NCBI RefSeq assembly: GCF_030285625.1
Contig: NZ_CP127294.1
Span: forward strand, 4,498,501 to 4,562,500
Source: Amycolatopsis sp. 2-15
GTDB taxonomy: Bacteria > Actinomycetota > Actinomycetes > Mycobacteriales > Pseudonocardiaceae
Length of the DNA stretch: 64,000 bases
Direction: 5' to 3'
In this document: one piece after another, positions 9,856 to 42,150 of the stretch
Layout: the number at the start of each line of letters is the position of its first letter
Numbering within the stretch: the stretch's first letter is position 1
Notes under the pieces: generated by a model
The model's input: only the letters and a program-made list of their open reading frames with translations
What the model was told of the DNA's origin: nothing
The model's database searches: none
Position numbers and translations under genes: made by a program

Positions 9856-10617
9856 ATGACCGAATCGACCCACTCCCGCCGCTCCCTGTTCAAGGCCGGT
9901 TTCGCCGCGTCGGCCGTTGTCGGTGGGGCGTTGCTCCTGCCCGAGAGCGTTTCGGCCGCGCCGTTGGTGCGCCGGGCGCGGCCGGTGCTCACGCACGGCG
10001 TCGCGTCCGGTGATGTGACCACCGGGTCCGGCATCATCTGGTCGCGGGCCGACCGGCCGGCGCGGCTGGTCGCCGAGATCGCGCGCGACGAGTCCTTCCG
10101 CCACGCCCGCAGAGTCACCGGGGACGTCACCACGCCCGACACCGGCGGCACCGGCAAGGTGCGCGTCGCCGGCCTGCAGCCCGGGACCGAGTACCACTAC
10201 CGCGTCACGGCCGTGGACCTCGACGGCCGCACGTCCAGCGAGCCCGTCACCGGCCGGTTCGCCACCGCGCCCGTCGGCCGCCGCGACACGCGCATCCTGT
10301 GGAGCGGCGACGTCGCCGGCCAGAACTACGGCATCAACCCCGCGTTGGGCGGCATGACCATCTTCTCCGCCATGGCCGACCGCCGCCCCGACCTGTTCCT
10401 GCACAGCGGCGACACCGTCTACGCCGACGGGCCGCTCACCGAGACCGTCACGCTCCCCGGCGACGGCGGCACCTGGCCCAACATCGTCACGCCGGAGAAG
10501 GCGAAGGTCGCCGAAACCCTCGACGAGTTCCGCGGCCAGCACTCCTACAACCGCCTGGACAAGAACTTCCTGCGCTTCGCCGCGCAGGTCCCCAGTTACG
10601 TCCAGTGGGACGACCAC
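9856..10617 (+). pseudogene. phoD: PhoD-type alkaline phosphatase, 5' part (split by the element)
   Basis: The N-terminus carries a twin-arginine signal (SRRSLFKAGF), then the PhoD N-terminal domain and the start of the metallophosphatase domain (LWSGDVAGQNYG, LFLHSGDTVYADGP). The last chromosomal codons read YVQWDDH, the metal-binding motif, after which the frame continues into element DNA and stops at 10644. Residues 1-254 are encoded here; the matching remainder starts at 42131. Joining the two halves at the shared GACCAC gives an uninterrupted 518-residue PhoD. The truncated product lacks most ligands and should be inactive. Confidence 0.93.
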
Positions 10618-10634
10618 CAAGTACGTCAACTGAC
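10590..10634. other. attL junction of the integrated element
   Basis: Left of GACCAC (10612-10617) the sequence is phoD coding sequence. To its right begins the element: CAA, a three-base spacer, and the arm CGTCAACTGAC at 10624-10634. The arm is the exact inverse of the arm at the right junction, and CCACCAA (10614-10620) mirrors TTGGTGG at 42124-42130. These are half-sites of a serine-recombinase attP. Confidence 0.9.
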
Positions 10635-10697
10635 AACACGCTAGCACGCTCGACCAGCGAGAACCCGACTGTCATCGGTTCGCGGACTAGCTGATGG

Positions 10698-11294
10698 TTA
10701 TGCGGGCTCGGTCGACTGGTGTTGCCCGGCGGCTCCTCCGGTGCCGCGTGTGGCGACGTAGTAGAGCAACGGCACCAGCGCCCCCGCGCCAAGAAGTTCT
10801 TGCCGCTGCGCCAGTTCGGGTATCCGGCTGAGCGGAACCCATTCCAGCCTGCCGACTTCTTCGGTATCCGTGGGTTCGCCGACCTTCTCGGCAGCCCGCC
10901 AGAGATAAACCTCGGTGCCTGCGGTCACCTGTCCGGGCAACGGTTCAAAGCTGATCAGGTGTTCGGCCTCGCCGAGCGGCTGATAGCCACTCTCTTCGCG
11001 GATCTCGCGGGCCGCTGTGGCGGCCGGTTCCTCACCCTCTTCGACCAGACCCCCGAGCAGTTCGTAGCCCCATTGGTCAGTGGGGAAGCGGTAGCGCCAG
11101 AGCATGAGCACGCGATCCCGGTCGTCCACGATTAAACCGATGGCGATCTTCGCCAGATGCACCACGTGGTAGTCCCAGCGTTCGCCGTTCGGCGCTTGCA
11201 CGTCGGCCAGGCCGAGCCGGACCCACTTGTTGTCGTAGACAGTCCGCTCACCGAAGGTCTTCCATGCCCCAAGCTCGTCAGTCACGCCCAGCAC
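10698..11294 (-). CDS. NUDIX hydrolase
   Basis: The 198-residue protein contains the NUDIX box GGLVEEGEE then REIREESG, with the Glu residues that bind the metal, so it should hydrolyse a nucleoside diphosphate linked to another group. An ADP-ribose-pyrophosphatase-like layout (WRYRFPTDQWGYELLGG) is visible. It is the first gene inside attL, transcribed toward the junction, and is divergent from the ESX-type operon. Pif of the AICE pSAM2 is a known NUDIX-motif protein that blocks redundant transfer, so a role in transfer immunity is possible, but this is inference. Confidence 0.9.
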   Translation of the reverse strand: MLGVTDELGAWKTFGERTVYDNKWVRLGLADVQAPNGERWDYHVVHLAKIAIGLIVDDRDRVLMLWRYRFPTDQWGYELLGGLVEEGEEPAATAAREIREESGYQPLGEAEHLISFEPLPGQVTAGTEVYLWRAAEKVGEPTDTEEVGRLEWVPLSRIPELAQRQELLGAGALVPLLYYVATRGTGGAAGQHQSTEPA

Positions 11295-11337
11295 CCTACG
11301 GGGCTGGCGATGTCCATGGCACGCCCATCCGATGGAC

Positions 11338-11355
11338 GTTCAACGTACGTTGGAC
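11338..11355. promoter_or_regulatory. Palindromic operator candidate
   Basis: The sequence contains the perfect palindrome CAACGTACGTTG (11341-11352), extended by one or two matching bases on each side, in the gap between the divergent NUDIX and ESX-type genes. Its position suits a repressor controlling one or both directions. No binding protein is identified. Confidence 0.4.
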
Positions 11356-11511
11356 GCACCTCGCTGATGGCCGATCCAGCCCTGTACAGCCTGGTCAGAG
11401 CGGGTGCGGACGGTCACGGGAGTGATCTTCGGCGTTCTGGAGACGGTTTGTTGCCGATTGGCTACTATCGGTGTGAGGTACGAGCCCACGGTATGTCAGG
11501 GGAGGCTTGCA

Positions 11512-11919
11512 GTGGCCGGGCAGGAGCAGGCGTTGAACGCTGCCAGATTCGTGGTGGCCGGCGAAGGTGGCGGAGGTGCCCCCGGCGGCGGGTCGGCTGG
11601 TGGAGCGTTTGCCCTTGACCGAGACGCCATGACCACCGAACTCGGGAACCTCAAGAAGCTCCAGGACCGGATAGCTGATCAGCTGTACCAGGCTAGGCCG
11701 CTGTGGTCGATCCAGTCTCCAGGCAACGACCCGGCGTCGCTGCGCAACACGGCGGCGTGCAACAAATCAGGTGTCGCCTATCAGGAAGCGCTGAAGCGCC
11801 AACGTGATTTTGTGGGCGTCTTCATTGGGAAAATGGAAAAGGCGCTCGGGATTCATGAGGCCAGCGACGAGCAGGCCGCGCAGACCGTGAATTCCAAGGG
11901 CGACGGAGGTCACTTCTGA
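11512..11919 (+). CDS. Small ESX-type secreted protein candidate
   Basis: Start GTG at 11512 follows AGGGGAGG by about seven bases and gives a 135-residue protein: a Gly-rich stretch near residues 17-30, then a helical region (LDRDAMTTELGNLKKLQDRI and NKSGVAYQEALKRQRDFV). There is no signal peptide. The helical, Gly-linked design and its place upstream of the DUF3558, PPE-like and EspG genes suggest a WXG100/PE-like export partner, although a clear WxG motif is not seen. The stop overlaps the next ATG. A longer upstream frame is open but lacks a better start. Confidence 0.6.
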   Translation: MAGQEQALNAARFVVAGEGGGGAPGGGSAGGAFALDRDAMTTELGNLKKLQDRIADQLYQARPLWSIQSPGNDPASLRNTAACNKSGVAYQEALKRQRDFVGVFIGKMEKALGIHEASDEQAAQTVNSKGDGGHF

Positions 11920-12521
11920 TGGTTCGTGTGTCTCGACTCGGTGGCGTTGTGGGTGTCTTGGCGCTTACATCCCTAATTGCCGCGTGCTCTGGAGCCACAG
12001 GGGGCACGCCAGAGCCGAGCCCCTCTTCCCCGTCGAGCACCGGACCAGCGGTCCCAAAGATTGAAGCCCCTTTGCCTGCGTCGCTAATTCAGGGTGACCC
12101 GTGTGCCGCCCTCACCTCTGCGCAAGTCGACGGCCTGTTCACGAATACGCCGACGCGTGACCAGGCTGCGAAAGATACCGGTGCGGCCAAGTCGTGCGGC
12201 TGGCATGACATTGATCGCGGATCCCTCATCGGCATCCAATTCGTCTATGCCTGGAAACACGGGTTGGCCGACGTGTACGCGACGCAAGGCCGTGGCTTCT
12301 TCAAGGTTCTGGCTCCGGTACAGGGGTACCCGGTCGTCGCTTACGGCCCGACTGATGACCGCTCAAGTGGTGCGTGCGGTGTCGCGGTGGGGATCGCTGA
12401 CAATGCGGCGTTCGAGGCCGATGTCCAGTTCGCCAACTCTGCCGTGGGCAAGGGTGATCCCTGTGATGACGCACGGAAAGTTGCGGATCTAGCAATCACC
12501 ACGTTGAAGGCGAGTGCCTGA
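11919..12521 (+). CDS. DUF3558-type lipoprotein
   Basis: The 200-residue protein begins with a lipoprotein signal ending in LIAACSG, so it should be lipidated at Cys and held on the outer face of the membrane. The following Ser/Pro/Thr-rich linker and the DPCAALTSAQVDGL and SCGWHD segments match DUF3558 proteins, which are common in Pseudonocardiaceae beside ESX-type genes. Function is unknown. It overlaps both neighbours by one base (TGATG), showing a tightly coupled operon. Confidence 0.82.
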   Translation: MVRVSRLGGVVGVLALTSLIAACSGATGGTPEPSPSSPSSTGPAVPKIEAPLPASLIQGDPCAALTSAQVDGLFTNTPTRDQAAKDTGAAKSCGWHDIDRGSLIGIQFVYAWKHGLADVYATQGRGFFKVLAPVQGYPVVAYGPTDDRSSGACGVAVGIADNAAFEADVQFANSAVGKGDPCDDARKVADLAITTLKASA

Positions 12522-13792
12522 TGTCCGGTGGGCCCGCTGAGGTTTTCAAGTCGTGGATGGACCAGCAGCAGAAAGAGGGCAATCTGATCCTGCCCGGTGA
12601 ACTGGTGCGGCGGGTGAAGAACGGCCCGGGCCTGGGCAGCTTGGGGGAAGCTCAGCACGTGAGTATGTCGCAGGCTTCGCAGCAGCAGGGGATCGACTCG
12701 GATACGCGGGCGATCGTCGCCCGGTTGGAAGCCGCATGGTCCGGGCAGAGCGGCGACGCGGCCCGTGCTGGGTTGCAGCCTTTGGCGGAAGCGGCGACCT
12801 CGTCATCATCCGCCCTGTCCGGCAGCCAGAGCACCTTGACCGATCAGAGTCATGCGTTCCAGTCCACTCGCGACTCGTTACAGGAAGTGTCCGACTGGCC
12901 CCCGACGCGGGATTTCGTCGACGTGGCAACCCCGTGGGACACCGACGCCGAGGACCAAATCAACCAGCGCAACGCGGCGGTTCAGCGGAACAACGAGATC
13001 TATCAAAGCTTCACCTCGACCAGCGACGGACACGCACAGGCCATGCCGACCGAATACGGCCAGATGCCCGATGCGCAAGGTGACTTCACGGTCGGGAATC
13101 CTTCTGCCTCAACGAATCAGCAGGCAGCGAACATCGGGCATTCGACATTCCAGCCGCACTCGTCGGGTCTGGATGGCGGGTCGTCGCGATCAAAATACAA
13201 CAACCCGTTCGTGTCGCAGCCAGTGCAGGACAACACCGGCAATGGCCGGGGCCAAGTCGGCAACGAGCAGTTGCCCGCCGCGCAGGGGAGCGGTGGCGAC
13301 GGCACGCACTCGGCAGGCTTTGTCCCGCCAACTGACCCCGGTACGGGTGCCGGTGACGCGACCAGGTTCACGCCGAGCGGTCCGGGCGGAAGCGGGTCGT
13401 CCTCCTATGGCCCGGGGAACGGAATCGGCGGGGGCCCCGGCTTCAGCGGCGGCTTCGCCGGTGGCGCGGCTGGCCTGGGCGAGCCGGGTGCCGGTGGACG
13501 AGTGCCTGGAACACCTGGGGCGGATCCGCGCACCGGTGGCCCTGGCGGGCCGGGGCGCTCGACTGGGTCGGGCCGGCTTGGTGGTGCCGTGGAAGAACCG
13601 GTGACGCGAGGCGGAGCAGCCGCGAGCGGTGCTCGCGGCGCTAACGGCATGCCGATGGGCGCAGCTGGTGCCGGGAAGGGCAGCAAGGAGGAGGACAAGG
13701 AGAAGAAGTCCGCCTCGTACCTGCTGGAACCGGACCCGAACGCGTTGTTCGGATACGACGGTAAAGCCGTTCCTCCGGTGATCGGCAAATAA
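12521..13792 (+). CDS. PPE-like ESX secretion substrate with Gly-rich tail
   Basis: This 423-residue protein has a helical N-terminal half with LEAAWSGQSGDAARAGL, a WxG-like turn typical of PPE/WXG100-type proteins, followed by predicted long helices to about residue 170. The C-terminal half (about residues 185-390) is a low-complexity Gly/Pro/Ser region, and the final residues read YLLEPDPNALFGYDGKAVPPVIGK. PPE proteins leave the cell through type VII systems with EspG as chaperone, and espG is the next gene. No ESX core (EccB/C/D, mycosin) is in the window. Confidence 0.8.
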   Translation: MSGGPAEVFKSWMDQQQKEGNLILPGELVRRVKNGPGLGSLGEAQHVSMSQASQQQGIDSDTRAIVARLEAAWSGQSGDAARAGLQPLAEAATSSSSALSGSQSTLTDQSHAFQSTRDSLQEVSDWPPTRDFVDVATPWDTDAEDQINQRNAAVQRNNEIYQSFTSTSDGHAQAMPTEYGQMPDAQGDFTVGNPSASTNQQAANIGHSTFQPHSSGLDGGSSRSKYNNPFVSQPVQDNTGNGRGQVGNEQLPAAQGSGGDGTHSAGFVPPTDPGTGAGDATRFTPSGPGGSGSSSYGPGNGIGGGPGFSGGFAGGAAGLGEPGAGGRVPGTPGADPRTGGPGGPGRSTGSGRLGGAVEEPVTRGGAAASGARGANGMPMGAAGAGKGSKEEDKEKKSASYLLEPDPNALFGYDGKAVPPVIGK

Positions 13793-13803
13793 CGGCTACC
13801 CGC

Positions 13804-14577
13804 ATGCTCATCGACGAACCGGTGACGGTGCCCCGCGCGGCTCTGGCCAGGGCGTGGGAGTGGGAACGAATCGGTGCGGCGCACCCCGTGCTGGGTGTGG
13901 TCGAGTGGTGGCTGGAAGACGACGCATCAGCCACGTTCGACGATCTCACGCGGCAGATCCTTGCCGAGCCCGGGTTCTACGACCTGCGCCGGCAGCGGCT
14001 TACGGGGGATTTCCGAGACGTCTTGTGGGCAATTTCGACCGCGGACGCGGAGTGCTATCGCCTCTCCGGTGCTCGTGACGGGCAGACTTCCGGAGCGCTG
14101 GCGGTCGTCGCTGGACGCACGGGTTTGCTGATCACCGTTGAGGACGAGCAGGCGACGCTGGTGCGCATCCCGACCGGGCGCTTGTGCCGGGCGGTCGTCG
14201 ACACCCTGCCCAACGCCCGTCCCGCCGCGATCGGAGAGATCCGGGTACCTCGCGCGGAATACGGTGCGGGTTCAGTGTCCGAGTCGTTCGACTTGGACAC
14301 GACCAGCGACTACACCGCGCCTGATGCTGCCGGGCAGCTTCGCGAGCTGATGGCCGCGCCCCGCAGTGCAATGCACCAGTTCTACGTGGCCAGCCGCGTG
14401 AATGGCCAGCGTTCGTCGAGCTATCCGCTGACTGCGATCGACACGGTTGATCACGGACGGGTTCTGACGATGCTTCAAAACGGTGTCGACGGCGAGGACA
14501 TCATCTCGTGTGGCCCAGGCAGTGCCGACTACGTCACAGCAACCCTGGAAACCACCATGCGCGGACTGGACGACTGA
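13804..14577 (+). CDS. espG: EspG family chaperone
   Basis: The 257-residue protein fits EspG, the cytosolic chaperone that binds PE-PPE pairs before type VII export: an opening with VTVPRAALARAWEWERIG, a conserved helix-strand core with the ARDGQTSGALAVVAGRTGLLIT segment, and a C-terminal part with QFYVASRVNGQRSSSYPLTAIDT. It is the fourth gene of the operon, 11 bases after the PPE-like gene. Its presence supports the reading of the upstream genes as secretion substrates. The symbol is assigned by family only. Confidence 0.8.
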   Translation: MLIDEPVTVPRAALARAWEWERIGAAHPVLGVVEWWLEDDASATFDDLTRQILAEPGFYDLRRQRLTGDFRDVLWAISTADAECYRLSGARDGQTSGALAVVAGRTGLLITVEDEQATLVRIPTGRLCRAVVDTLPNARPAAIGEIRVPRAEYGAGSVSESFDLDTTSDYTAPDAAGQLRELMAAPRSAMHQFYVASRVNGQRSSSYPLTAIDTVDHGRVLTMLQNGVDGEDIISCGPGSADYVTATLETTMRGLDD

Positions 14578-14589
14578 TCCCGGCCGTTA

Positions 14590-15756
14590 CTAACACTTGC
14601 CAGGCAGACGTGCTAGCCGCCGCAGCTGGCGCGCTGAGCCAATTTCCGTTGCCAAGTCACGTGCTTTGGTGATGTGAAGGTTCGCTTCGTCGTGTTCTCC
14701 TGCGACGGCAAGAGCGGTGGCCAGATCAACGCGGAGCCCCGCTTCGGCGCGTGTAAAGGTCGGATCCAGACCTCGTAGAGCCTTGTCGAGAACGCTTACG
14801 GCGTCCGCCTCGCCGATGCGAGCGAGGGCGTTCCCACGCCAGCGAGCGAGGTGCACAGAGTCCAGAACAAGGTATGGACCGTCATCCGTCGACGGGCCGG
14901 CCGGAAGCAACGATTCCGCACGGTCGAACGCGCGGAGGCTTTCCAAAGGCCTATCGCTGGCTGCGAGTGCTTCGCCGTGGGCAGCGGCTAGCCACGCACG
15001 CAGCAGCGGACTGCCATCTCCCCGGGCGTCGCTCTCGGTCGCGGCCAGCAGGTCGACGGCGTCGATCGCGTGCCCGATGTCTAGCAGCACGAAAGCCTGT
15101 TCGGCTTCAACGTGCCTGGCGAAAGCAGCATCGTCGGATTCATGCGCCACCTGTTTTGCGCGTTCGTAGTGGTTCCACGCGGTTGAGACCCGGCCTTGGT
15201 CGAGTGCTTGCCACCCGGCGAGCGCACTCAATTCCGCGAGCAACGCGGCGAGCTGAGCGCGAGTTCCAGCGGACAGGCTGTACGAGTGCAGCTGCGTCAC
15301 CTGGTCAATCTTGACCGCAACTTCGTGATACGCAGCGGTAGCCCCCAATTTCCGGTCGAGCTGTCGCACCGCCGCCAATTGGTCACGCAGGATTGCCACC
15401 ACGCTCGTATCGATCCGCTTGGCAGTCGCGATAGCTGACCGCAGCTCCTGTCCGACGGTATCGGCGCTGGCGGTAGTCGGCTCGATCGGTACTAGAAGCT
15501 CGTCAATGCTGGTTCCGAAGATCCGTTCGAGCAGACGCGCCGTGGCGGGGCGAGGGCGGCCGACCAGGGTGCCGTCGGTTCGGCGTCCGGCAACCAGCCG
15601 CTTGAGGTTGCGTTCGCTGAGCGTCCCTGGCTCGCCGGACTGACGGGCGAACGATTCCGCGGATTCGGCGAACTCGGACAACGACTGGCTGCGCTCCCAG
15701 ATCTTCTGTTCGAGCAGCGTACGTGGTTGTCGTGCTCGCTCATCGGCTACTGCCAT
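14590..15756 (-). CDS. HTH transcriptional regulator with TPR-like C-terminal domain
   Basis: The 388-residue protein has a DNA-binding N-terminal region (about residues 1-95, with LSERNLKRLVAGRRTDG) and a long alpha-helical TPR-like body ending RDLATEIGSARQLRRLARL. It shares its plan and several segments (SALAGWQALD, LRAWLAAAHGEAL, HLARWRGNAL) with the regulator at 26105-27244, so the two are paralogues on one element. It is convergent with the ESX-type operon. Such regulators are often found on actinobacterial integrative elements; the effector is unknown. Confidence 0.82.
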   Translation of the reverse strand: MAVADERARQPRTLLEQKIWERSQSLSEFAESAESFARQSGEPGTLSERNLKRLVAGRRTDGTLVGRPRPATARLLERIFGTSIDELLVPIEPTTASADTVGQELRSAIATAKRIDTSVVAILRDQLAAVRQLDRKLGATAAYHEVAVKIDQVTQLHSYSLSAGTRAQLAALLAELSALAGWQALDQGRVSTAWNHYERAKQVAHESDDAAFARHVEAEQAFVLLDIGHAIDAVDLLAATESDARGDGSPLLRAWLAAAHGEALAASDRPLESLRAFDRAESLLPAGPSTDDGPYLVLDSVHLARWRGNALARIGEADAVSVLDKALRGLDPTFTRAEAGLRVDLATALAVAGEHDEANLHITKARDLATEIGSARQLRRLARLPGKC

Positions 15757-15901
15757 GTCTCCACCCCGTGGCCCCGGACTGGCCCGTCACTGGCCCACCG
15801 GCGTCCTTCCGCTGAAATAGCTTCACCATACACGCTTATATCAGCTTACTGAACACGTTGACTCCGGCTGTGAAGCGTGCCGGCGGGGAGGGACTTGGAC
15901 G

Positions 15902-16258
15902 ATGGCATCCGATCAGGCGCGGCTCTACATTGTGTGGCACCGCAGCACGAACGATGGACGCGACCACGCGATTACCGACGCGGAGTTCGTGCGAGCGCGC
16001 CGCATGAGGTCTTGCGGTCAGTATCGGGCCGTCTGCGGGCACGTCGTCACCGTGGGGTCCATGCTGGAGGCTCCTGGTGCGCCATGCGCGACGTGCCGGA
16101 CGTACGTCTTCGTACGAAGCCGGGTGCCGGCTTCGGATGGGCACGCTCGCCATGCCCAACGGTCCGCGCCTTCGCTGTGGTCCCGCGTCCGGCGCCGCAT
16201 GTGCAATGGCGCGCGCCTCTTTGGCGCGACGTCGGCTGCCGTTGGCGGCGCGCAGTGA
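15902..16258 (+). CDS. Hypothetical protein with paired cysteines
   Basis: A 118-residue product starts MASDQARLYIVWHRSTNDGR. The segment CGQYRAVCGHVVTVGSM followed by PCATCRTYV looks like a small zinc-binding fold, with CxxC after a CGH. After residue 90 the sequence becomes Arg/Ala-rich. No family is recognised. The stop overlaps the GTG start of the next small gene (GTGA), which supports real translation. Confidence 0.5.
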   Translation: MASDQARLYIVWHRSTNDGRDHAITDAEFVRARRMRSCGQYRAVCGHVVTVGSMLEAPGAPCATCRTYVFVRSRVPASDGHARHAQRSAPSLWSRVRRRMCNGARLFGATSAAVGGAQ

Positions 16259-16473
16259 CAGGACCTGTGTTTCTTGCGCGTCCCGTGCGCGGGTTGGTCG
16301 GAGAAACGCGAAGAGTCGTGCATACATTCGATGTCCCTCGTGGTGAAACGCCATCCCGGCTCGTCGCCTTCTGTGGTGCAGATTTCGGCCCCGGAGAGCT
16401 GGAAATCAAGAATGCGCCCGAGGGAATGCCCTGTATGGAATGTTTGCGCCATATTCCTGTCCCCGCGAGTTGA
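16255..16473 (+). CDS. Small hypothetical protein, 72 residues
   Basis: GTG at 16255 overlaps the previous stop. The product (VTGPVFLARPVRGLVGETRR, later AFCGADFGPGELEIKNAPEG, then CMECLRHIP) again has a CG pair and a CxxC near the end, so it and its upstream partner may both bind zinc. GC content falls toward the end of the gene, like the genes that follow. Function is unknown. Confidence 0.5.
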   Translation: MTGPVFLARPVRGLVGETRRVVHTFDVPRGETPSRLVAFCGADFGPGELEIKNAPEGMPCMECLRHIPVPAS

Positions 16474-16483
16474 CGGGAAGTGT

Positions 16484-16888
16484 ATGATGGCTCGTTTCGT
16501 GCACGTCGAAGGCTTCACTGAGGGGATTGATCCGATTCTGATCCCGCCTGTTCGGCTGCTAATTGTCGTCATTCTGGTCGACCGGAATTGGTGTGAATAC
16601 GCCACGTTGCGGGTGAAGCTTGGACTGGAACCGTCTGTACTTTCGAAGCAATTGTCCACCCTGCGTAAGGCAGGTTACGTGACTACCAGATCAGGGGTCG
16701 ACGGTCGACGATCAGAATGGCTGATATCGAAACGTGGAATTGATCGGCTGGACGCGCATCTATCTGGATGGCATCGCCTCGCTGCGACGGCCTCAGAGGT
16801 GCTATCTGCCACTCGCGCGTTAGCGCCGCGTTCACTGCCCGTTACAGAGGTGTCCAGCTCGAACGGCAATCGTCATGACCAGGCCTAA
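16484..16888 (+). CDS. Winged-helix DNA-binding protein
   Basis: Starting at ATG 16484 (or 16487) after GACGGGAAG, the 134-residue product has a MarR/ArsR-like winged helix: the recognition region LRVKLGLEPSVLSKQLSTLR followed by a wing (GYVTTRSGVDGRRSEWLISK). This pattern matches single-domain winged-helix regulators. Base composition is clearly lower in GC than the chromosomal genes, consistent with transfer. It overlaps the next gene by 14 bases. Confidence 0.75.
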   Translation: MMARFVHVEGFTEGIDPILIPPVRLLIVVILVDRNWCEYATLRVKLGLEPSVLSKQLSTLRKAGYVTTRSGVDGRRSEWLISKRGIDRLDAHLSGWHRLAATASEVLSATRALAPRSLPVTEVSSSNGNRHDQA

Positions 16889-17240
16889 TCTCCTTGTAAA
16901 GGTTCTGGACACCTTAATCGGCCGTGCGTCAGTTGGAAAGAGTGGGAAACGAAGGCGACGCAGCCGCCTTCTCTGTCATAATCAACGTTCGGTGCTCGAA
17001 ATTAGTCAACGCATTGAATGGGAGATTCTCACCGAAGATACCGGTGTCATGTATGGGGTTCGACGTACGCGGTTGGCACCCGATCCTCTGCAAGATGGAG
17101 TCATGTTCGGACTTCTTGCGCTGCCAAAGCGTTCCCCTGGTGGTGCCCTTAAGCGGAGACTGTATGTGCAGCGGCCAGTTGTGCAGCCGGATACCGACTT
17201 GATGAAACGAGTACTAGACGGACTTCGCCGGATTGATTGA
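16875..17240 (+). CDS. Hypothetical protein, 121 residues
   Basis: The ATG lies inside the 3' end of the winged-helix gene, suggesting translational coupling. The product is basic near residues 20-35 (GKSGKRRRRSR) and has no recognised domain. The C-terminal part (DGVMFGLLALPKRSPGGALK) may form a beta-rich fold. GC content is low for this genome. Function unknown. Confidence 0.45.
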   Translation: MTRPNLLVKVLDTLIGRASVGKSGKRRRRSRLLCHNQRSVLEISQRIEWEILTEDTGVMYGVRRTRLAPDPLQDGVMFGLLALPKRSPGGALKRRLYVQRPVVQPDTDLMKRVLDGLRRID

Positions 17241-17264
17241 GCCTTTGATCCGACGAGATTAGAG

Positions 17265-17616
17265 CGCATCGACGACGCGCATGTCCGCCTGGCGGTCGAC
17301 GGATTGGCTTACACCGGGTTGCCGCGAAGTATCTCGACCGCTCGTGGCTGAGGTTGCTGCGCGAGGCCACTCCCATGTACGCCGCCCAGCTGTACCAGCA
17401 GTCGGCCGCGGCGCAGCGAGCGGCGGGACACAACCGAGAAGCCCGGCGCTCGACCTTGGGACACCCTTGATCTCAACCGGAGCGCGCACACTATGACACC
17501 GCCAACAACGCCACCGGTCAGACCCTCACCGCGCTCGGCCGGGTACTACGACTGCTCGCTTGGGGCTTCGCGAACCTCTGCATCGCAGGATTCGCCGGTG
17601 CGGTCGGCAAAACCTA
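17265..17616 (+). pseudogene. Decayed 3' copy of the repeat-rich membrane protein
   Basis: Read across frames, this stretch gives VRLAVDGLAYTGLPR, WLRLLREATPMYAAQLYQQ, AAAQRAAGHNREARR, LGTPLISTGA and VLRLLAWGFANLCIAGFAGA, which track the C-terminus of the protein encoded at 22746-25061. About 100 residues between the helical part and the last membrane segment are missing and the frame shifts at least twice. It is a remnant of a second copy of that gene. Confidence 0.75.
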
Positions 17617-17871
17617 GCTCAGCTCCTGGCGCACGGTTTTTCCAGCGTCCACAGCGTGGCGCGGATCGAGCAGCCCGACGGCAAGGTTGACGCGACACGC
17701 TTTCGTATCGAGAACCTTCGCCTCGGTCGCGTCGGCCACCTTGGATCGGTCGAACGGGGCCGAGCTCCGCGGCGATCTGGTTGCGGTTGCGGCCGACGGC
17801 ATGCAGCGCCCGAACCTTGCGGCGTTCCTCGTTGGATGGGGCCGGGCAAGGCGGATCACCTCGACTCCGTA
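17614..17871 (-). pseudogene. Fragment of an AICE-type HTH protein
   Basis: On the minus strand, PFDRSKVADATEAKVLDTKA followed by CRVNLAVGLLD resembles the middle of helix-turn-helix proteins found on actinobacterial integrative elements, with a preceding piece in another frame. There is no intact frame across the region. I treat it as debris. Confidence 0.35.
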
Positions 17872-18463
17872 ACGAAACGACGCGGAATCACGCTGTAGCG
17901 ACCGTGCGCAAACTTCTCGTGATCTTCGGTGCTCTGGTCCTTGTCGCTGGCGGCGGCAGCCAGCCAGCCGTCCGCACCGGCGCCGGCGGCGCCCGCGGCT
18001 TCGCTTCGCCGCGGGCTTTGGCGGTGGGGCGGACCTACCTTGAGGCGCTCCGTTCGATCGACCCTGGCCTCGTCGAGAACCGGGTCCGCGCGATCCTGCG
18101 TGGGCGGGACGTGTGTGATGACCTCGCGCAGGGCAAGGACCGCGCGACCGTGGTCAGGAGCGAGGCTTTGCGCTTCGCCGGCGGCCGAGAAGATCGTCGC
18201 GGCGATCGGGTCGAGCGGGCTCTGCACGGAAGTAGGGCATGTGTGAGCCCGGGTGGCTTGGGGGTGCGGTCGGGGCGCTCGTCGGGTCTGTCCGCTAGGG
18301 GCGCCCCACCAACGTGACCGACCTTGCACTCGGCGAGGCGAGATCGGCTACTAACTCTTGGCGTCAGGCGACGTGCCCAGGTGCGCGACCCTCGGATGAG
18401 CGCTAGCCTCACGGCCGCGGCGGGTCTGCCGCGCACGCTGAGCGCCACTTCACGGAGAAGACC
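17872..18463. other. Gene-poor stretch of about 590 bases
   Basis: Only overlapping short frames in all phases are present, without ribosome sites or recognisable domains. Local GC is high and the stretch lies between decayed genes and the excisionase-type gene. It is most likely degraded element DNA. Nothing further can be supported. Confidence 0.5.
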
Positions 18464-18784
18464 GTGCATGGAGATCGAGACCAGCTGACGATCAGCGTCG
18501 GCAACCTAGACATTTCGGATGCTTCCGTCCGCCGATTCGCGGCATTGCTCGGCGAGGTAGTCGCGCAGAAGCTACGCGAGTTACCGACCGTCCAGGAGCG
18601 GGTCCTGCTAACGGTCGAAGAGGCAGCCAACCGGCTGGCGATTAGCCGCAGTGTGATCTACGAGCTACTGAGGTCAGGCCAGCTTGAATCGGTGACCATC
18701 GGTCGCAATCGACGCGTGCCGGTTCTCGCTGTCGACGACTTCGTAGCGCGACTTCGCAGGGAGCAGCATGAACCGCCCCAGTAG
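18464..18784 (+). CDS. Excisionase-type helix-turn-helix protein
   Basis: The 106-residue protein has a C-terminal HTH_17/MerR-like excisionase domain: LLTVEEAANRLAISRSVIYE, then LLRSGQLESVTIGRNRRVP and a closing helix VDDFVARLRREQ. Such proteins are the usual Xis upstream of a tyrosine integrase in pSAM2-like elements. The N-terminal 45 residues form an added helix-rich part. It overlaps the next, broken HTH gene. Because the matching integrase gene is gone, any present role is unclear; it could act as a regulator. Confidence 0.78.
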   Translation: MHGDRDQLTISVGNLDISDASVRRFAALLGEVVAQKLRELPTVQERVLLTVEEAANRLAISRSVIYELLRSGQLESVTIGRNRRVPVLAVDDFVARLRREQHEPPQ

Positions 18785-20202: not shown

Positions 20203-20274
20203 TAGTCAGAGGTTACCTTAAGTCGGTCGCTCAATGTGCTCGAATCCGTTGACGATCTACACTAAGGTCTCTAT

Positions 20275-21957: not shown

Positions 21958-21988
21958 CGGCTTCTAAATCTATTCGTGTACTTTCAGT

Positions 21989-34508: not shown

Positions 34509-35686
34509 CGCGCTTCGGACACGGGATGGAGAAGATCGACGAGCGCATCCCCGGCATTGACCTTCCGCTCATGTCTGTATCCCAGACGCGGGGCGTCATC
34601 CGGCGAAGTGAGTTGACGGACGCCCCCCCACGGGCTGAGTCCCTCGACAACTACAAGGTGTGCCGGGCCAACGACATCGTCTTCAACAAGATGAGCATCC
34701 GCGCCGGCGCCATGGGCGTCGCGGCCGAGGACGGTCTGGTGACCTACCACTACGAGGTCATGCGACCGCGCGAAGGAACGGACCCGCACTTCATCGCCTA
34801 CCTAATGAAGTCATCGTGGTTCACCGAGGAGCTCATCAAGCGCGAGCGGGGGATCGGCGCAGGCGACCAGGCCAACGTTCGGACCACGGAGGTGCCGTTC
34901 TCGGTCCTGAAGACGATCGATGCCTACATTCCCGGCTACGACGAGCAGCGCGCCATCGCCGACTACCTCGACCGCGAGACCGCCCGCATCGACACGCTCA
35001 TCGAGGAGCAGCAGCGCCTGATCGAGATGCTCCGCGAGCGGCGTGCTGCAGTCCTCTCCGCAGCGTTCGATGCCGGCCCCTCAACCGAGGTAACCAAGGT
35101 CGGACGGTTGCTGGCGGCCCGCCCGTCGTACGGCGTGCTGGTGCCGAGGTACGTAGACGAGGCGGAGGGTGTTCCGTTTGTTCGGGTCGGCGACCTTCTG
35201 AACCTCACCCCGGAGCGGCCGATGCTGGCGATCGTGCCGGAGCAGTCGGACGAGTATTCCCGTACGAAGATCGTCGGCGGCGAAGTGCTTCTCGGCGTTG
35301 TCGGCAAGATGGGACAGGCTGCGCTCGCACCTCACTGGCTCGCGGGCGCGAACGTGGCGCGGGCGGTGGCAGTACTACGTTGCAAAGACCCGGCTGTGGC
35401 TCCCCTCCTGTGCGCCTGGCTCGGATCGAACAACTTCCTGTATCAGGCTGAGTTGGCGACGAGCGGAGACAGCATTCAGCCCACACTCGGTATGAAGGAC
35501 CTCGCGCGGTTCGACATCAACCTGCCTACTGATCCCAACGCGGCCGCTGACCTCGCTAGCCGGTTGGCGAAGATCGACACGCTCATCACCGAGACTAAGC
35601 GGTTCATCGAGCTCTCGAAGGAACGACGGGCGGCGCTAATTACGGCGGCGGTGACAGGGCAGATTGACGTACGGGAGATGGCGTGA
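34505..35686 (+). CDS. hsdS: Type I restriction-modification system, specificity subunit
   Basis: HsdS reads the DNA target. The 393-residue protein has two target-recognition domains, each followed by a conserved helix: first IADYLDRETARIDTLIEEQQ, second LASRLAKIDTLITETKRFIE. The two halves share the ending E(R/K)RAA(V/L)(L/I)(S/T)AA, as expected for the internal repeat. The first domain starts directly after the initiation codon with little N-terminal extension. The target sequence cannot be read from the protein. Confidence 0.93.
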   Translation: MTRFGHGMEKIDERIPGIDLPLMSVSQTRGVIRRSELTDAPPRAESLDNYKVCRANDIVFNKMSIRAGAMGVAAEDGLVTYHYEVMRPREGTDPHFIAYLMKSSWFTEELIKRERGIGAGDQANVRTTEVPFSVLKTIDAYIPGYDEQRAIADYLDRETARIDTLIEEQQRLIEMLRERRAAVLSAAFDAGPSTEVTKVGRLLAARPSYGVLVPRYVDEAEGVPFVRVGDLLNLTPERPMLAIVPEQSDEYSRTKIVGGEVLLGVVGKMGQAALAPHWLAGANVARAVAVLRCKDPAVAPLLCAWLGSNNFLYQAELATSGDSIQPTLGMKDLARFDINLPTDPNAAADLASRLAKIDTLITETKRFIELSKERRAALITAAVTGQIDVREMA

Positions 35687-38600
35687 TGGCCGATCACAAC
35701 GAGGTCGTCTTCGAGTCCGAGATCTGCGAGTACCTGGCCGGCCACGGGTGGCTGTACTCGGCGAATGATACCGGCTATGACCGCGAGCGAGCGCTCTTTC
35801 CTGAGGACCTGCTCGCCTGGCTGGAGGAGACCCAGCAGGCGGCCTACAAGAAGGCCTTGAAAGCGGCGGGGTCGCAGGCGAAGTTCGTCGACGTGCTGAC
35901 CACGGCGCTCGACAAGCCTCTCGAACATGGTGGCGGGACGCTCAATATCCTGCGCAACGGGGTGCAGTACATCGGCGGTGGCCGGTTGAAGATGGCGCAG
36001 TTCCGTCCCGAGACGAGCCTGAACGCGACCACCAATGAGCAGTACGCGGCGATGCGGGTGCGGGTGATGCGGCAGGTGCATTTCTCCACCGCCGATCAGC
36101 GCAGCATCGACCTGGTCTTCTTCGTCAACGGGCTCCCGGTCGCCAGTGTGGAGCTGAAGACCGACTTCACCCAGTCGCTGGATGAGGCGATCAACCAGTA
36201 CCGCAAGGACCGTCACCCGCTGACCAACGGACGCCCCGAGCCGCTGTTGTCGTTCGGGCATCGGGCGCTGGTGCATTTCGCGGTCTCCAACGACCTAGCA
36301 GCAATGACGACTCGGCTCGAGGGCGAGAAGACCCACTTCCTGCCGTTCAACATGGGTCACGACAGTGGCGCGGGGAACCCGCCGGGCCAGCGCGGGCGGT
36401 CGGCGACGGCGTACCTGTGGGAGCGGGTCTGGGAGAAGGACGCTTGGCTCACCATCATCGGTCGTCTGATGATCGTGGAGACCAAGGAGGAGTGGGATGT
36501 CGCGACCGGGACGTCGGTGCGGCGTACGAGCATGCTCTTCCCTCGGTTCCACCAGTGGGAAGCCGTAACGAACATCGTGGCCGCGGTGCGCGAGGAGGGG
36601 GTGGGCCAACGCTACCTGATCGAGCACTCGGCAGGTTCGGGGAAGACCAACACCATCGCCTGGACCGCGCATCGGCTGGCACGGCTGCACGTGAACGACG
36701 AGAAGGTCTTCGACTCGGTGATCGTGGTCGTGGACCGCACAGTGCTCGACGGGCAGCTCCAGGAGGCGATCCGCCAGATCGACGGGTCAGGGAAGATCGT
36801 CGCGACGATCAGCCCTGAAGACGTCCGCAAGGCGGGGGCGAAGTCGAAATCCGGGCTGCTGGCGTCCGCGTTGAAGAACGGTGAGCTGATCATCGCGGTG
36901 ACGGTGCAGACCTTCCCGTTCGCGCTGGATGAGATCCGGGCCGACTCGTCGCTGAAGGGGCGGCGGTTCGCGGTGATCGCGGACGAGGCGCATTCATCGC
37001 AGTCCGGTCAGACCTCCTCCAAACTCAAGGCCGTGCTGACCGCGGAGGAAGTCAAGGAGATCGAAGACGGCGGCGAGGTCGACGTCGAGACAGTCCTGGC
37101 GTCAGAGATGACTGAGCGGGCCGAGTCGGAAAACATCTCCTACTTCGCGTTCACCGCGACGCCGAAGAACAAGACCCTGGAACTCTTCGGCCGTAAGGGC
37201 CCCGACGGGAAGCCAGTCGAGTTCCACCTCTACTCGATGCGGCAAGCGATCGAGGAGGGCTACATCCTCGACGTGCTCAGGGGTTACCAGTCCTACGACA
37301 CCGCACTGCAGATCGCCGGCCAGGCCGAAAGCGGCGACGGTGACGTGGTGGTGGAGGAAGCCGCAGCGCGCAAGGGGCTGATGCGGTGGGTCAAGCTGCA
37401 CCCGACCAATATCAGCCAGAAGGTGCAGATCATCGTCGAGCACTTCCACGCCAACGTCGCCCACCTGCTGGAGGGCAAAGCGAAGGCGATGGTCGTGACC
37501 GACTCCCGCAAGGCCGCAGTGAAGTACAAGAAGGCAATCGACGCCTACATCACCAAACGAGCCGCTCTGGACTCCTCATACAACTACCGCACCCTGGTCG
37601 CCTTCTCCGGTTCGGTGACGATGGCCGACGACGAGGAATGGGCCTCGGACTGGGGGCCGCAGCCGAGCAAGGACGACGAGTTCACCGAGGCCAACCTGAA
37701 CCCCGGAGCCGGCTCGGACCTGGCCGCCGCATTCAAGGGCGAGACTTACAAGATCATGCTGGTCGCCAACAAGTTCCAGACCGGATTCGACCAGCCGCTG
37801 CTCTCGGCGATGTATGTCGACAAGAGACTCCCCGGGCTCACTGCCGTGCAGACGCTCTCCCGCCTCAACCGCACCCATCGCACGGCCGGCGGGGAACAGA
37901 AACGCAAAACGTTCGTGATCGACTTCGTGAACAAGCCCGAGGACATCCGAACCGCGTTCGAGCCGTATTTCACCAACGCCACCCTGGAGAACGAGACCGA
38001 CCCCTACATCGTCATTCACCTCGCCAACAAGCTCGCCCAGGCCGGGATATACACGCCGGAGCAGGTGCGCGAGGTCGCCGGACTGTGGGTCGCCCGAAAA
38101 GGCAACAACGCACTCTCGGCTGCGATCAGCCCGGCCAAGAACGACTTCGCGCGCCGCTACGCTGCCGCGATCGAGGCTGATGACAAGGTCACCCTCAACG
38201 CCCTCGACCTGTTCCGCAAGGACGTCTCGACCTACGTCCGGCTCTACGACTTCATGAGCCAGATCATCGACTACGGCGACACGCACCTGGAGATGCTGTC
38301 GATCTTCCTGAGGCTCCTGGAGAAGGTCATCGCAGACTCGTCCTGGACCGCAGAAGTCGATCTCTCCGACGTGGTCCTGGTCCGGGTCAAACACAACAAG
38401 GGCACCGCGGTCGACATCTCGCTGACCGGAGACGGCGAGCTGAAGGGGATCAGCGCTGCGGGCACTGGGGCACGAAAAGAACCGAAATACGTCGCGCTCC
38501 AGGTCGTCATCGATAAGATGAACGACCTCTTCGGCGCCGAGTCGTTCTCCGAGTCCCAGGTCCGCGAGTTCGTGCAAGGACTGGTGCAGCGGCTGCTCGC

Positions 38601-38823
38601 CTACCCGAACCTGGTCAACCAGACCAAAGTGAACTCGAAGAAGCAGTTCATGGAGTCACAGGACTTCCAAGCAGCGGTCACCGAGGCGGTCGTCGACAAC
38701 CAGGAGGCCCACAACACCATGGCCGACTACTTCTTCAGCGACGGGCCTGGCATTAGCGCCGTCATCGTGGCACTCGCAGACGCGTTCTACGAGGCCGCGA
38801 TCGATCAGCGGACGGATGTGTGA
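35686..38823 (+). CDS. hsdR: Type I restriction-modification system, endonuclease/translocase subunit
   Basis: HsdR cleaves and translocates unmodified DNA. The 1045-residue protein has an N-terminal PD-(D/E)xK nuclease domain (IDLVFFVNGLPVASVELKTDF, with the E-x-K pair), then a superfamily 2 helicase: Walker A SAGSGKTN near residue 315, DEAHSSQ near 432, the FTATPKN motif, and QTLSRLNRTH as motif VI. The C-terminal region is helical and should bind HsdM/S. GTG at 35683 gives one extra residue; ATG 35686 is chosen. All motifs are intact, so the system is probably active. Confidence 0.95.
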   Translation: MADHNEVVFESEICEYLAGHGWLYSANDTGYDRERALFPEDLLAWLEETQQAAYKKALKAAGSQAKFVDVLTTALDKPLEHGGGTLNILRNGVQYIGGGRLKMAQFRPETSLNATTNEQYAAMRVRVMRQVHFSTADQRSIDLVFFVNGLPVASVELKTDFTQSLDEAINQYRKDRHPLTNGRPEPLLSFGHRALVHFAVSNDLAAMTTRLEGEKTHFLPFNMGHDSGAGNPPGQRGRSATAYLWERVWEKDAWLTIIGRLMIVETKEEWDVATGTSVRRTSMLFPRFHQWEAVTNIVAAVREEGVGQRYLIEHSAGSGKTNTIAWTAHRLARLHVNDEKVFDSVIVVVDRTVLDGQLQEAIRQIDGSGKIVATISPEDVRKAGAKSKSGLLASALKNGELIIAVTVQTFPFALDEIRADSSLKGRRFAVIADEAHSSQSGQTSSKLKAVLTAEEVKEIEDGGEVDVETVLASEMTERAESENISYFAFTATPKNKTLELFGRKGPDGKPVEFHLYSMRQAIEEGYILDVLRGYQSYDTALQIAGQAESGDGDVVVEEAAARKGLMRWVKLHPTNISQKVQIIVEHFHANVAHLLEGKAKAMVVTDSRKAAVKYKKAIDAYITKRAALDSSYNYRTLVAFSGSVTMADDEEWASDWGPQPSKDDEFTEANLNPGAGSDLAAAFKGETYKIMLVANKFQTGFDQPLLSAMYVDKRLPGLTAVQTLSRLNRTHRTAGGEQKRKTFVIDFVNKPEDIRTAFEPYFTNATLENETDPYIVIHLANKLAQAGIYTPEQVREVAGLWVARKGNNALSAAISPAKNDFARRYAAAIEADDKVTLNALDLFRKDVSTYVRLYDFMSQIIDYGDTHLEMLSIFLRLLEKVIADSSWTAEVDLSDVVLVRVKHNKGTAVDISLTGDGELKGISAAGTGARKEPKYVALQVVIDKMNDLFGAESFSESQVREFVQGLVQRLLAYPNLVNQTKVNSKKQFMESQDFQAAVTEAVVDNQEAHNTMADYFFSDGPGISAVIVALADAFYEAAIDQRTDV

Positions 38824-39016: not shown

Positions 39017-40201
39017 GTGCCGTATCAAGCAACGTTGGGTAGGTAATCGGGGCGGCGGATTTTGGAGTTGATGGCGAAGTGGCGTTTGGGGTGGCTGTGG
39101 CGGTTGCGCCAGCGGAGGTAGCCGGTGATGGCGGCTTCCTGGGCGGCGTGGCTGGGGTAGTCGCTGCCGTCGAGGGTGAAGTAGCGGACCGCGGTGAACT
39201 CGCACTCGATCCAGTTCAGCCAGGACGCGTTGGTGGGTGTGTAGATCAGTTCGATGTCGTTGGCCGCGCACCAGTCCCGGACCTCGGCCTTGCCGTGTGG
39301 TCCGTAGTTGTCGCTGACCAGGTAGAGCTTCCCGGTCGGGAAGCGGCGGCGCAGTTGCTTGCAGAAGTCGAGGAACTGCGGCCAGCGTTTGCGGTCGCGG
39401 AACCGGTAGAACATCTGCCCGGAGGCCAGATCGAGCGCAGCGAACATCTGCCGGACACCCTTGGTGCGGGTGTAGGTCGCGCGCTGCCGGGCCGGGCGGC
39501 TGCGGGGAAACCAGCCGCGGCCGGGGCGGGGTTGCAGGTTCAGCGGCCCGAACTCATCGACACAGATCACTCGCCCGTCGGCGGGTGGGTGATCGTAGAG
39601 GTCGAGGATGCGGTTCTTCTTGGCCACGAAATCGGGATCCTTGCTGGCTTTCCACGTCTTCGTCGCCTGCCATGACACGCCTGCCTTGCGCAGGATCTGC
39701 CGGACGGTCTCGGTGCTCGCCCTGATCCATGCGTGTTCGGCGAGGTAGGCGACCAGCTTGGTCAGGCTCCAGGTCGTGAACGGCAATCCCAGCTCGGCGG
39801 GCTTGCAGGCGGCGATGCGGCTGATTTGATCACGGGCGGCCGGCCCGAACTTAGCCGGTCGACCGCCCCTCCATTTTGGGGACAACGCCGCGAACCCGGA
39901 CTCGTTGAACGCGTGGATCACCTCCCGCACATAGCCTTCGGTCGCGGCGAACATCGCCGCGATCTCCTTCGCGGACCGGCCTTGCGACGAGGCCAGCACA
40001 ATCCCGGATCGTCGCAGCCGCACCCGATCCCGGGCCGACCTCGTGATCTTGACCAGCCGCTGGGCCTCCTCCGGCTCCAGCGACCGCGCGAACACCTCCG
40101 GCTGACGCGCCACCAGCCTCACCTCCACAGCCAGCCTCGCGATCACCGGCCCGGATGTCCACACGACACGATGACAACGTCAACGTTTCTTGATGAGGCA
40201 C
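39017..40201 (-). mobile_element. IS630-family insertion sequence, 1185 bp
   Basis: The ends are 21-bp inverted repeats with 18 matches (GTGCCGTATCAAGC at 39017 and its partner at 40181-40201). TA dinucleotides flank both ends (39015-39016 and 40202-40203), the signature target of IS630/Tc1-type elements. It lies between hsdR and the integrase gene. Confidence 0.92.
39025..40164 (-). CDS. IS630-family transposase
   Basis: The 379-residue protein has an N-terminal helix-turn-helix (GRSAKEIAAMFAATEGYVRE) and a DDE domain with Asp in VICVDEFGPLN, Asp in YLVSDNYGPHG and Glu in LNWIECEFTAVR. All three residues are present. The true start may be a few codons downstream of the first methionine (VRLVARQPEVFA region). 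It nearly fills the element. Confidence 0.92.
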   Translation of the reverse strand: MWTSGPVIARLAVEVRLVARQPEVFARSLEPEEAQRLVKITRSARDRVRLRRSGIVLASSQGRSAKEIAAMFAATEGYVREVIHAFNESGFAALSPKWRGGRPAKFGPAARDQISRIAACKPAELGLPFTTWSLTKLVAYLAEHAWIRASTETVRQILRKAGVSWQATKTWKASKDPDFVAKKNRILDLYDHPPADGRVICVDEFGPLNLQPRPGRGWFPRSRPARQRATYTRTKGVRQMFAALDLASGQMFYRFRDRKRWPQFLDFCKQLRRRFPTGKLYLVSDNYGPHGKAEVRDWCAANDIELIYTPTNASWLNWIECEFTAVRYFTLDGSDYPSHAAQEAAITGYLRWRNRHSHPKRHFAINSKIRRPDYLPNVA

Positions 40202-40472
40202 TAGACCGTCTCTGTGATCGTCTGGCGGCCGGATTTGACGGTCTGAGGGGCTCCTGGCGACGTGTTGCGCGTGCCGGTTGCGCCTTGCTCGAGCACGGCC
40301 GATGCAAGCAAGTATGAGACCCAGCATGGCCGGGCGCGAACAGATCGGTGCGCAGCAGTGCGATGATGATCTCGCCATCGTCCGGCCGGCCACCTGGCGG
40401 GGTCGAGGTGACGGCCGTCGGCAAGCAGTGGCCTGATCCGTGGTTACACACGTGCGAATGAGCCGTTTTCCC

Positions 40473-42071
40473 CTATTGTTTCCGGTCGAGTAAGTCTGTG
40501 ATCTCTATCGTCTCGCCAGCGTTGGCGGTCCGGTCGTACCATTCGGCTACTTCCGGCATGGCTTCCCGCCAGCCTTCCGGCAGGCGCCAACTGGCCGACC
40601 ACGTGCCGTCCGACCTCTTCTGCACTGCGAACGCGAACCCCACTTCGAGCCACCTGAGGCGACGGTCTTCCGGTGACAGTTCTGCCAGCTCTTGCTGCCA
40701 GGTGCGGTCGGTCGGAACCCATTGCACGCCGCCTGGGTCGGCTGGAAGGGCCCTCAGTGTGTCGATATCAGATAGAATCTTGTCCCCGTCATCCATGATT
40801 CGGCGTCGGTCTTCTGGCGACTTGGCGCGGGCGACTCCGGACATCAGCTTGCCGTATTCTCGTTCTAGTTTCGCAATCTCGTTTGCATGGCTGGTCGGCG
40901 GCAATACGACACGCTCTCGAACGGGGACCTTTGCAAAGATCTTGTAGAAGGCCTGCGTGGCAAATTCTTCTATTGCTTCCGCCTGCATCGCTGGGCCATG
41001 TTTGCGTGTTGGGCATTGCCAGTATCGGTACTCATACTCGATCGTGGTACCGTCGTTGCGCTTTCGCTTGCGAACTGCGATGCGGTGCCAAAGAGACTCA
41101 AGACACTCCGCGCACACGAGGATTCCGGAGAATTCGTACGGCTGATTGCTACCGCGTGTCTTCCGCTTCGACTTTTCTGCTAGTCGGGCGACTATCTCTG
41201 CCTGGTCGGCGGGTTCAAAGATACCGAATTCCACAAGGTTTGGGTCGGTCAACAGGCGGCCGAGCGTGTTGCCCTTCCATTCGTACCCCTTCAGCTCGAC
41301 TGTGGCGGGATCGTCCCCTCGCCGTTCCGCTGCCAGCTGCAGTTGCCTGTCCCGTGGGGTCACGACCTGCTTTTCGTTGAGCCAGCGGGCCATAGCCGCA
41401 AGACTGCTTCCCGTTCGAGCCATCTTCGAGAGGCTCTGGAGAATCTTGACCGCGAACGGGTCGAGCCCCAGGATCCAGCCCCCGCCTGGCAGCTGCACTG
41501 GCATCGTGCCGTAGACGTGACCTTCGCCCGCCCAGCGGCCGGCTTCCTTGAGTGCTGCCTTCGACGCGCGGAACCGCTCCTGCATACGTTCTCGCTCCAT
41601 GCGAGCGAACGCGGCAATGAGGGTGATCATGAACTCTGACATCGAGTTACTGGAGTCGATGCCCTCTGCGATGCAGATCAGCCGCTTCCCGCGTGCCCTC
41701 AGCCACTCCAGCAAGCTGAGTGCGTCCATGACGTTCCGTACGAGTCGGTCCAGCTTGGAGACGACCAGCGTCTTCCACGGCTTCGGTGGGGCGTCCGACA
41801 GCCAGAGCTTCAACCCGTCACGCAGGTACGGTTCGAGGTCACCCGAGACGTGCAAGTCCTCCACGGTTGCGACGACCGGGATGTCGTAGGCCTTCGTCCA
41901 TCGGTGCGTGTCCCGCGTCTGGACCTCGCTGGACGTACTCTCGTCCGTGTAGTGCGACTGGCGGGCGTAACACACCGCCGCGTCGCCGTCCGGCGTGAAC
42001 GGGACGGCCGGCATTCGCGCGCTGACCTGCTTCTTGAACCTGCGCCGCTTCCGGGGTGTCGGTGCGCTCAT
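40473..42071 (-). CDS. int: Large serine recombinase (integrase of the element)
   Basis: The 532-residue protein has the serine-recombinase catalytic domain with nucleophile in CYARQSHYTDES (Ser39) and the KLDRLVRNVMDAL and FARMERERMQERFRASK segments, a recombinase domain (VYGTMPVQLPGGGWILGLDP onward), a zinc ribbon beginning LVCAECLES, and a C-terminal coiled coil (EIAKLEREYGKLMSGVARAK). This is the phiC31/Bxb1-type plan. It starts 39 bases inside the right junction and reads away from it, the usual arrangement beside attP. It is expected to join attP to attB in phoD; excision would need a directionality factor not identified here. Confidence 0.95.
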   Translation of the reverse strand: MSAPTPRKRRRFKKQVSARMPAVPFTPDGDAAVCYARQSHYTDESTSSEVQTRDTHRWTKAYDIPVVATVEDLHVSGDLEPYLRDGLKLWLSDAPPKPWKTLVVSKLDRLVRNVMDALSLLEWLRARGKRLICIAEGIDSSNSMSEFMITLIAAFARMERERMQERFRASKAALKEAGRWAGEGHVYGTMPVQLPGGGWILGLDPFAVKILQSLSKMARTGSSLAAMARWLNEKQVVTPRDRQLQLAAERRGDDPATVELKGYEWKGNTLGRLLTDPNLVEFGIFEPADQAEIVARLAEKSKRKTRGSNQPYEFSGILVCAECLESLWHRIAVRKRKRNDGTTIEYEYRYWQCPTRKHGPAMQAEAIEEFATQAFYKIFAKVPVRERVVLPPTSHANEIAKLEREYGKLMSGVARAKSPEDRRRIMDDGDKILSDIDTLRALPADPGGVQWVPTDRTWQQELAELSPEDRRLRWLEVGFAFAVQKRSDGTWSASWRLPEGWREAMPEVAEWYDRTANAGETIEITDLLDRKQ

Positions 42072-42109
42072 GGTCGGTATCCTCGCTGGTAGACGACGTG
42101 CCCAGTGTA

Positions 42110-42150
42110 GTCAGTTGACGCCCTTGGTGGGACCACGAGGTCCTCAACAA
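42110..42150. other. attR junction of the integrated element
   Basis: The element ends with the arm GTCAGTTGACG (42110-42120), CCC, TTGGTGG (42124-42130), then the shared GACCAC (42131-42136), after which phoD coding sequence resumes (GAGGTCCTCAAC). The arm is the inverse of that in attL. Joining 42110-42136 to 10618-10634 gives the predicted 44-bp attP, symmetric around GA. Confidence 0.9.

Follow-up and report, generated by a model that had tools for sequence, protein, structure and literature searches.

A serine recombinase element in the catalytic codons of phoD in Amycolatopsis sp. 2-15

Described systems and the present locus

Actinomycete integrative and conjugative elements (AICEs) are described by their integrase, Rep and Tra modules. 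Among the 144 AICEs in Ghinet 2011, 19 use serine recombinases, and one such element disrupts a putative endonuclease gene and has been seen to excise; NsdA-like and WhiB-like regulators are reported for Frankia AICEs (PMC3218068). Distantly related large serine recombinases have been reported to converge on one conserved coding site, and most recombinase clusters are predicted to use 1–3 target gene clusters (Durrant 2022, PMC10083194). A coding gene is also split by gin, a serine recombinase element with restriction-modification genes that interrupts gerE and rebuilds it upon excision (PMC5595907). Here, we analyse a 64,000-nucleotide stretch of the Amycolatopsis sp. 2-15 genome (the window; G000:C1:4498501–4562500, from the 10.05-Mb single-contig source genome G000), in which a 31,519 bp element lies inside phoD.

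The phoD elements—that of the window, and the related elements described below—share with AICEs a site-specific integrase with attachment (att) sites and a single FtsK/SpoIIIE-type Tra protein. They differ in their target, phoD, and in giving no match to RepSA, RepAM (DUF3631) or Prim-Pol in the six elements scanned (G000, G317, G021, G502, G468 and G445). By gene content they resemble AICEs with one defining feature missing; a Rep of another type may be present. Like gin, the window element combines a serine recombinase with restriction-modification genes, and precise excision would rebuild the split gene; however, gin excises during sporulation, and most relatives lack the phoD element. The stable association with one host gene that marks skin and gin is not seen here, with 33 of 35 sites uninterrupted and four paralogue classes used. 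The arrangement also differs from those in Durrant 2022, in that one recombinase clade uses homologous codons in several paralogues of one protein family. No report of a serine integrase or AICE using phoD was found in the literature (open-licence PMC papers), and the word phosphatase is absent from the main texts of Ghinet 2011 (PMC3218068) and Durrant 2022 (PMC10083194).

The first-pass annotation of this DNA proposed that the insertion splits phoD within its metal-binding codons, and its coordinates, reading frame and lengths proved correct. The left half (9856–10617, + strand) encodes residues 1–254, including the N-terminal signal region, and the right half (42131–42931, + strand) resumes from D253. 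As had been predicted, joining 9856–10617 to 42137–42931 gives an open frame of 518 amino acids plus a stop codon, with matches to both PhoD_N (PF16655, 80.3 bits) and PhoD (PF09423, 300.8 bits). The joined protein is similar to the solved PhoD structure 2yeq, and alignment places the metal-ligand motif WDDHExxNN within it. Unjoined, the left half reads to H254, continues through eight element-encoded residues and then stops (protein end QWDDHQVRQLTTR). Bacillus subtilis PhoD is inactive with any of the substitutions D265A, N271A or N272A, and with D266A its activity is drastically lowered (PMC4223295); the equivalents of D265, D266, N271 and N272 in the alignment to 2yeq are D252, D253, N258 and N259. 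Since the left fragment is without essential metal ligands, it can safely be inferred that integration inactivates phoD.

An uninterrupted phoD, which the first-pass annotation had suggested seeking in related genomes, is present in 33 of 35 other genomes sampled from the genus (69–87% identity); in the remaining two, phoD is either without a match (G001) or represented by overlapping fragments that fall in two frames (G008). The split is therefore not a chance arrangement. The gene ndk (43011–43421, + strand; PF00334, 172 bits) lies directly downstream of phoD in all 30 intact loci fetched, as it does in the window. Upstream, GTTCACC occurs at 9794–9800, ~60 bp from phoD, and GTTCAYY is found near the same place in 30 of 31 phoD loci (L012 does not carry it); we take this motif to be similar to a pho box.

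Crossover site and recombinase targets

The two phoD halves had been said to share only GACCAC, and this is exactly the run common to attL and attR in the window. Comparison across elements narrows the crossover further. For this comparison, attL was available from eight elements and attR from nine (G017 contributes a right junction only); all of them align on GA, and GA forms the core in each of the eight attL/attR pairs. In G161 and G566, whose phoD halves are on separate contigs, nothing but GA is common to attL and attR. Provided that all members use the same place, the crossover would therefore be at GA, i.e., at 10612–10613 (attL) and 42131–42132 (attR), both on the + strand, and the CCAC that follows would be an identity between attP and attB beside the core. 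GA makes up the first two bases of the codon for a metal-ligand Asp, D253 here and D266 in B. subtilis PhoD.

Reconstruction of the sites before integration gave two results. Firstly, the eight rebuilt attB sites (that of the window included) are all of PhoD type and read WDDHE in frame, and the joined open reading frame (ORF) is open in seven of the eight; the exception is G317, with a frameshift in the left half. Precise excision would hence restore phoD in the window, as the first-pass annotation had anticipated. Secondly, GA lies at the centre of an inverted repeat in the rebuilt attP, with 18–24 of 28 positions paired in seven of eight elements. In the window, the attP right arm is the left end of the element (10614–10638, + strand) and forms an inverted repeat with the left arm at the right end of the element (42106–42130, + strand); 21 of 25 positions are paired, versus a best of 17 in 2000 shuffles. 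Such an attP, with its two arms paired about a dinucleotide, is consistent with the general serine integrase model (PMC3783163). Conservation of attB across paralogue classes is high but not first: across seven joined targets from three classes (leaving out G317, for its frameshift, and G017, for which only the right half was available), it ranks 58 of 1818 windows of 40 bp and 20 of 1840 windows of 18 bp.

A nested second copy of the element was considered and rejected; the att-end motifs occur at the two ends only. The strict pattern CAGTGGGAYGAYCAYGARG reveals no free second attB in G000. Of the three distant G000 paralogues fetched, a WDDHE site occurs only in L072; its score of 37.6 falls just short of the 38.1 reached by the lowest-scoring real target.

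The large serine recombinase (532 aa; 40473–42071, − strand; PF00239, 109.8 bits, cut-off 23.3) does adjoin the right junction, with 60 bp between its start and the core at 42131. At a cut-off of E 1e-100, the genus sample of 80 genomes includes 10 with a relative and the family sample of 390 includes 17 (G000 counted in both). The family search gave 19 loci, G000 itself included: ten at 74–100% identity, eight at 69–73% and one at 42%. The flank beyond the gene start was read for all 19, that of L048 stopping at a contig end. For nine of the ten recombinases at 74–100%, the target is a PhoD-family gene, entered at its WDDHE codons, and these nine elements span four genera and four phoD paralogue classes: the orthologue split in the window (G000, G445, G317 and G161), a second class (G021 and G566), a third (G502 and G468) and a fourth (G017). 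Left halves were found for all of the targeted genes except that of G017. The wider searches gave only weak relatives in a 397-genome sample of the order (E 1e-31 to 1e-37), and none besides G000 among 394 genomes of the class at E 1e-60.

On a tree of 18 recombinase sequences (three distant ones left out, the tree including them being poorly resolved), the phoD label needs three changes, a number equalled in 4 of 500 shuffles. The orthologue A label also needs three changes, equalled in 151 of 500; hence, the paralogue classes do not cluster. Branch support is weak, with 4 of 15 inner branches starred and 7 open. Most simply, the clade as a whole would prefer WDDHE codons, while its members have often moved from one paralogue to another and sometimes to an unrelated gene.

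Six of the recombinases at 69–73% (L036, L037, L038, L048, L049 and L050) adjoin a common CACTCACGA-type sequence outside phoD, perhaps a dispersed repeat that serves as their target. By eye, the recombinase of L069 (G536:C39) apparently lies within an endonuclease/exonuclease/phosphatase-like gene. Most relatives have a closely similar leader of the recombinase gene (window 42072–42102; CGTATCCTCGCTGGTAG type, + strand), irrespective of target.

Integrative element, regulated switch or immobile island

The sequences themselves establish that the junctions are exact, that the site is empty in relatives, and that these codons have been targeted repeatedly, across four genera and four paralogue classes. 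We consider it very likely that the window carries a member of a Pseudonocardiaceae family of site-specific integrative elements, whose recombinase joins an inverted-repeat attP to the WDDHE-codon attB of PhoD-family genes at GA. Recombinase, matched att sites and translocase indicate that the element is integrative and probably transferable. The proposed mechanism consists of (i) crossover by the recombinase at GA, within the second Asp codon of the W-D-D-H-E catalytic loop, (ii) excision, in which the recombinase would act together with a directionality factor (perhaps the HTH_17 protein of the core) to yield a scarless phoD and a released circle, and (iii) transfer by the FtsK-type translocase, as in AICEs. 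The recombinase would read codons common to the protein family, and so related elements would enter different phoD paralogues. The 31.5-kb size may be explained by cargo around a core that forms elements of 8.5–15.3 kb in relatives.

Several observations weigh against this reading. The expectation that close homologues of the recombinase share its target holds for nine of ten, as described, and fails for G024 (79% identity), whose recombinase lies in another gene, by eye that of a HerA-like ATPase. The eight recombinases at 69–73% and the one at 42% are all outside phoD. Since G024 and the entire 69–73% group sit elsewhere, specificity for phoD does not extend to the recombinase family as a whole. 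The Recombinase and zinc-ribbon DNA-binding domains score just below their cut-offs (PF07508, 21.0 bits versus 21.1; PF13408, 22.3 bits versus 25.3), and the G445 attP has only 7 of 28 positions paired, out of register, with one arm one base shorter. Within the phoD orthologue (31 sequences), conservation of the 40 bp centred on GA is unexceptional, at rank 695 among 1517 windows, and we rejected the notion of attB as the best-conserved stretch of phoD. To these are added the Rep families that found no match and the HTH_17 protein of the core, whose role as candidate excision (directionality) factor is a guess and a weak point.

The first-pass annotation saw in the split gene a possible genetic switch for phosphate scavenging, a suggestion that fares poorly here. 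In its full form, PhoD of the Pseudonocardiaceae would be reversibly switched by the element family: excision under phosphate limitation or starvation, in development or in part of the mycelium would restore PhoD, much as skin and gin do for sporulation genes, with the WhiB-like and HTH_17 proteins in control. Both regulators do lie within the element, excision would rebuild an open gene in seven of eight cases, and the GTTCAYY motif upstream of phoD recurs in nearly all loci. Moreover, the split phoD shows no relaxed selection (median ratio of nonsynonymous to synonymous change, pN/pS, of 0.295 against the 30 intact loci, versus 0.287 among 435 intact pairs); however, a recent insertion accounts for this equally well as occasional rebuilding. 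Set against these points are a site that is empty in most genomes of the genus, the variety of paralogues targeted, the frameshift in the phoD copy of G317, and the presence in G000 of three more PhoD-family loci, all distant; together, these points make such a switch very improbable. If it did exist, phosphate scavenging would be a phase-variable or division-of-labour trait. Given the mostly empty sites, the varied paralogues, the G317 frameshift and the three further loci, we favour the splitting of phoD as a by-product of site choice.

A decayed island that entered by its own recombinase and can no longer leave is a possibility to be taken more seriously, albeit still unlikely. The window element has three transposase genes and much cargo, matches none of the three known Rep families searched for, and is missing two genes common among its relatives: in a tblastn search of the window (E 0.01), we found neither the NsdA-like regulator, of which seven relatives have a homologue (the G021 copy matching the NsdA family at 93.9 bits, cut-off 75), nor the Imm1-like gene, of which six relatives have a homologue (the G021 copy matching Imm1). 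Yet the recombinase, HTH_17, WhiB-like and FtsK-type genes are open and complete, and both att sites are present. Nothing was found in favour of an assembly or sequencing artefact, which is hardly credible for a single-contig genome whose junction anatomy recurs in seven other genomes and in the right junction of G017.

Other origins of the element were rejected. The window is without a tRNA gene that could have been the target. A prophage is contradicted by the lack of any recognised structural gene among the element ORFs scanned, which were a part of the total, and by the distance of the phage integrases; those of Mycobacterium and Rhodococcus phages belong to the same recombinase family but are distant, and the phage matches (207 records, 204 of which cover at least 80% of the query) are all below 60% identity, the ten listed being at 28–29%. 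For a plasmid origin, the recombinase was found in no plasmid record at E 1e-20, and the FtsK relatives on seven plasmid records are partial and less than 60% identical.

If the integrative reading is right, the clade constitutes a clear case of an integrase that reads catalytic codons common to a protein family, with closely related elements inserting into different paralogues. Its eight attP/attB pairs are matched and its crossover dinucleotide is resolved by sequence, which would make the clade useful for engineering the genomes of Amycolatopsis and related bacteria, and the host cost of insertion and the phosphate response of excision become directly testable.

Core genes and cargo

ORF comparison and pairwise searches reveal a common core in one order: HTH_17 protein, WhiB-like protein, 111-aa protein, 261-aa protein, FtsK-type translocase and recombinase. 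In the window, all but the last are on the + strand. The 64-aa HTH_17 protein (27972–28166; PF12728, 29.7 bits, cut-off 27), the WhiB-like protein (28163–28498; PF02467, 34.9 bits, cut-off 23.6) and the 111-aa protein (28495–28830; hydrophobic by eye, no NCBIfam match) each have homologues in six relatives. The 261-aa protein (28827–29612), also hydrophobic by eye and with a sub-threshold Pfam match, has homologues in five and was not found in G317 and G502. The FtsK/SpoIIIE-type, Tra-like translocase (29605–31974; 789–810 aa depending on start choice; PF01580, 38.8 bits, cut-off 24) is 59–81% identical in eight relatives, that of G017 being partial. In the G445 element (L063), the translocase gene is broken, with one ORF of 644 aa and another of 171 aa.

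The five complete relative elements are 8,494 to 15,321 bp long, and nucleotide matches to any of them are confined to 28.0–32.1 and 40.5–42.1 kb of the window. The G000 copy has, in addition, a left cargo and, between translocase and recombinase, type I restriction genes and a transposase. The restriction-modification system (32763–38823, + strand; Pfam and PADLOC) consists of HsdM (32763–34508), HsdS (34505–35686) and HsdR (35683–38823). The transposase (39025–40164, − strand) is of DDE_3 type with a helix-turn-helix (PF13358, 66.4 bits) and is presumably IS630-like.

The left cargo (10698–27837, ~17 kb) has no nucleotide match in the five complete relatives and encodes NUDIX, DUF3558, PE/WXG100-like and EspG proteins, regulators, two transposases, a GmrSD_N protein and an 821-aa repeat protein. 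The GmrSD_N protein (20275–21957), in the part of the element with the lowest GC content, matches PADLOC PDC-M55C over nearly its full length (278 bits) and is likely an anti-phage gene product. A second HTH_17 protein (18464–18784; 44 bits) lies far from the core module and is possibly the excision factor of another element within the left cargo. The 821-aa ORF (22596–25061) contains seven 51-nt repeats at a spacing of 159–162 nt, with a weak pentapeptide-repeat match. Finally, genes of the DUF3558, EspG and PE/WXG100-like kinds (the last of these below cut-off) are grouped at 11404–14577, in the manner of ESX (type VII) secretion loci.

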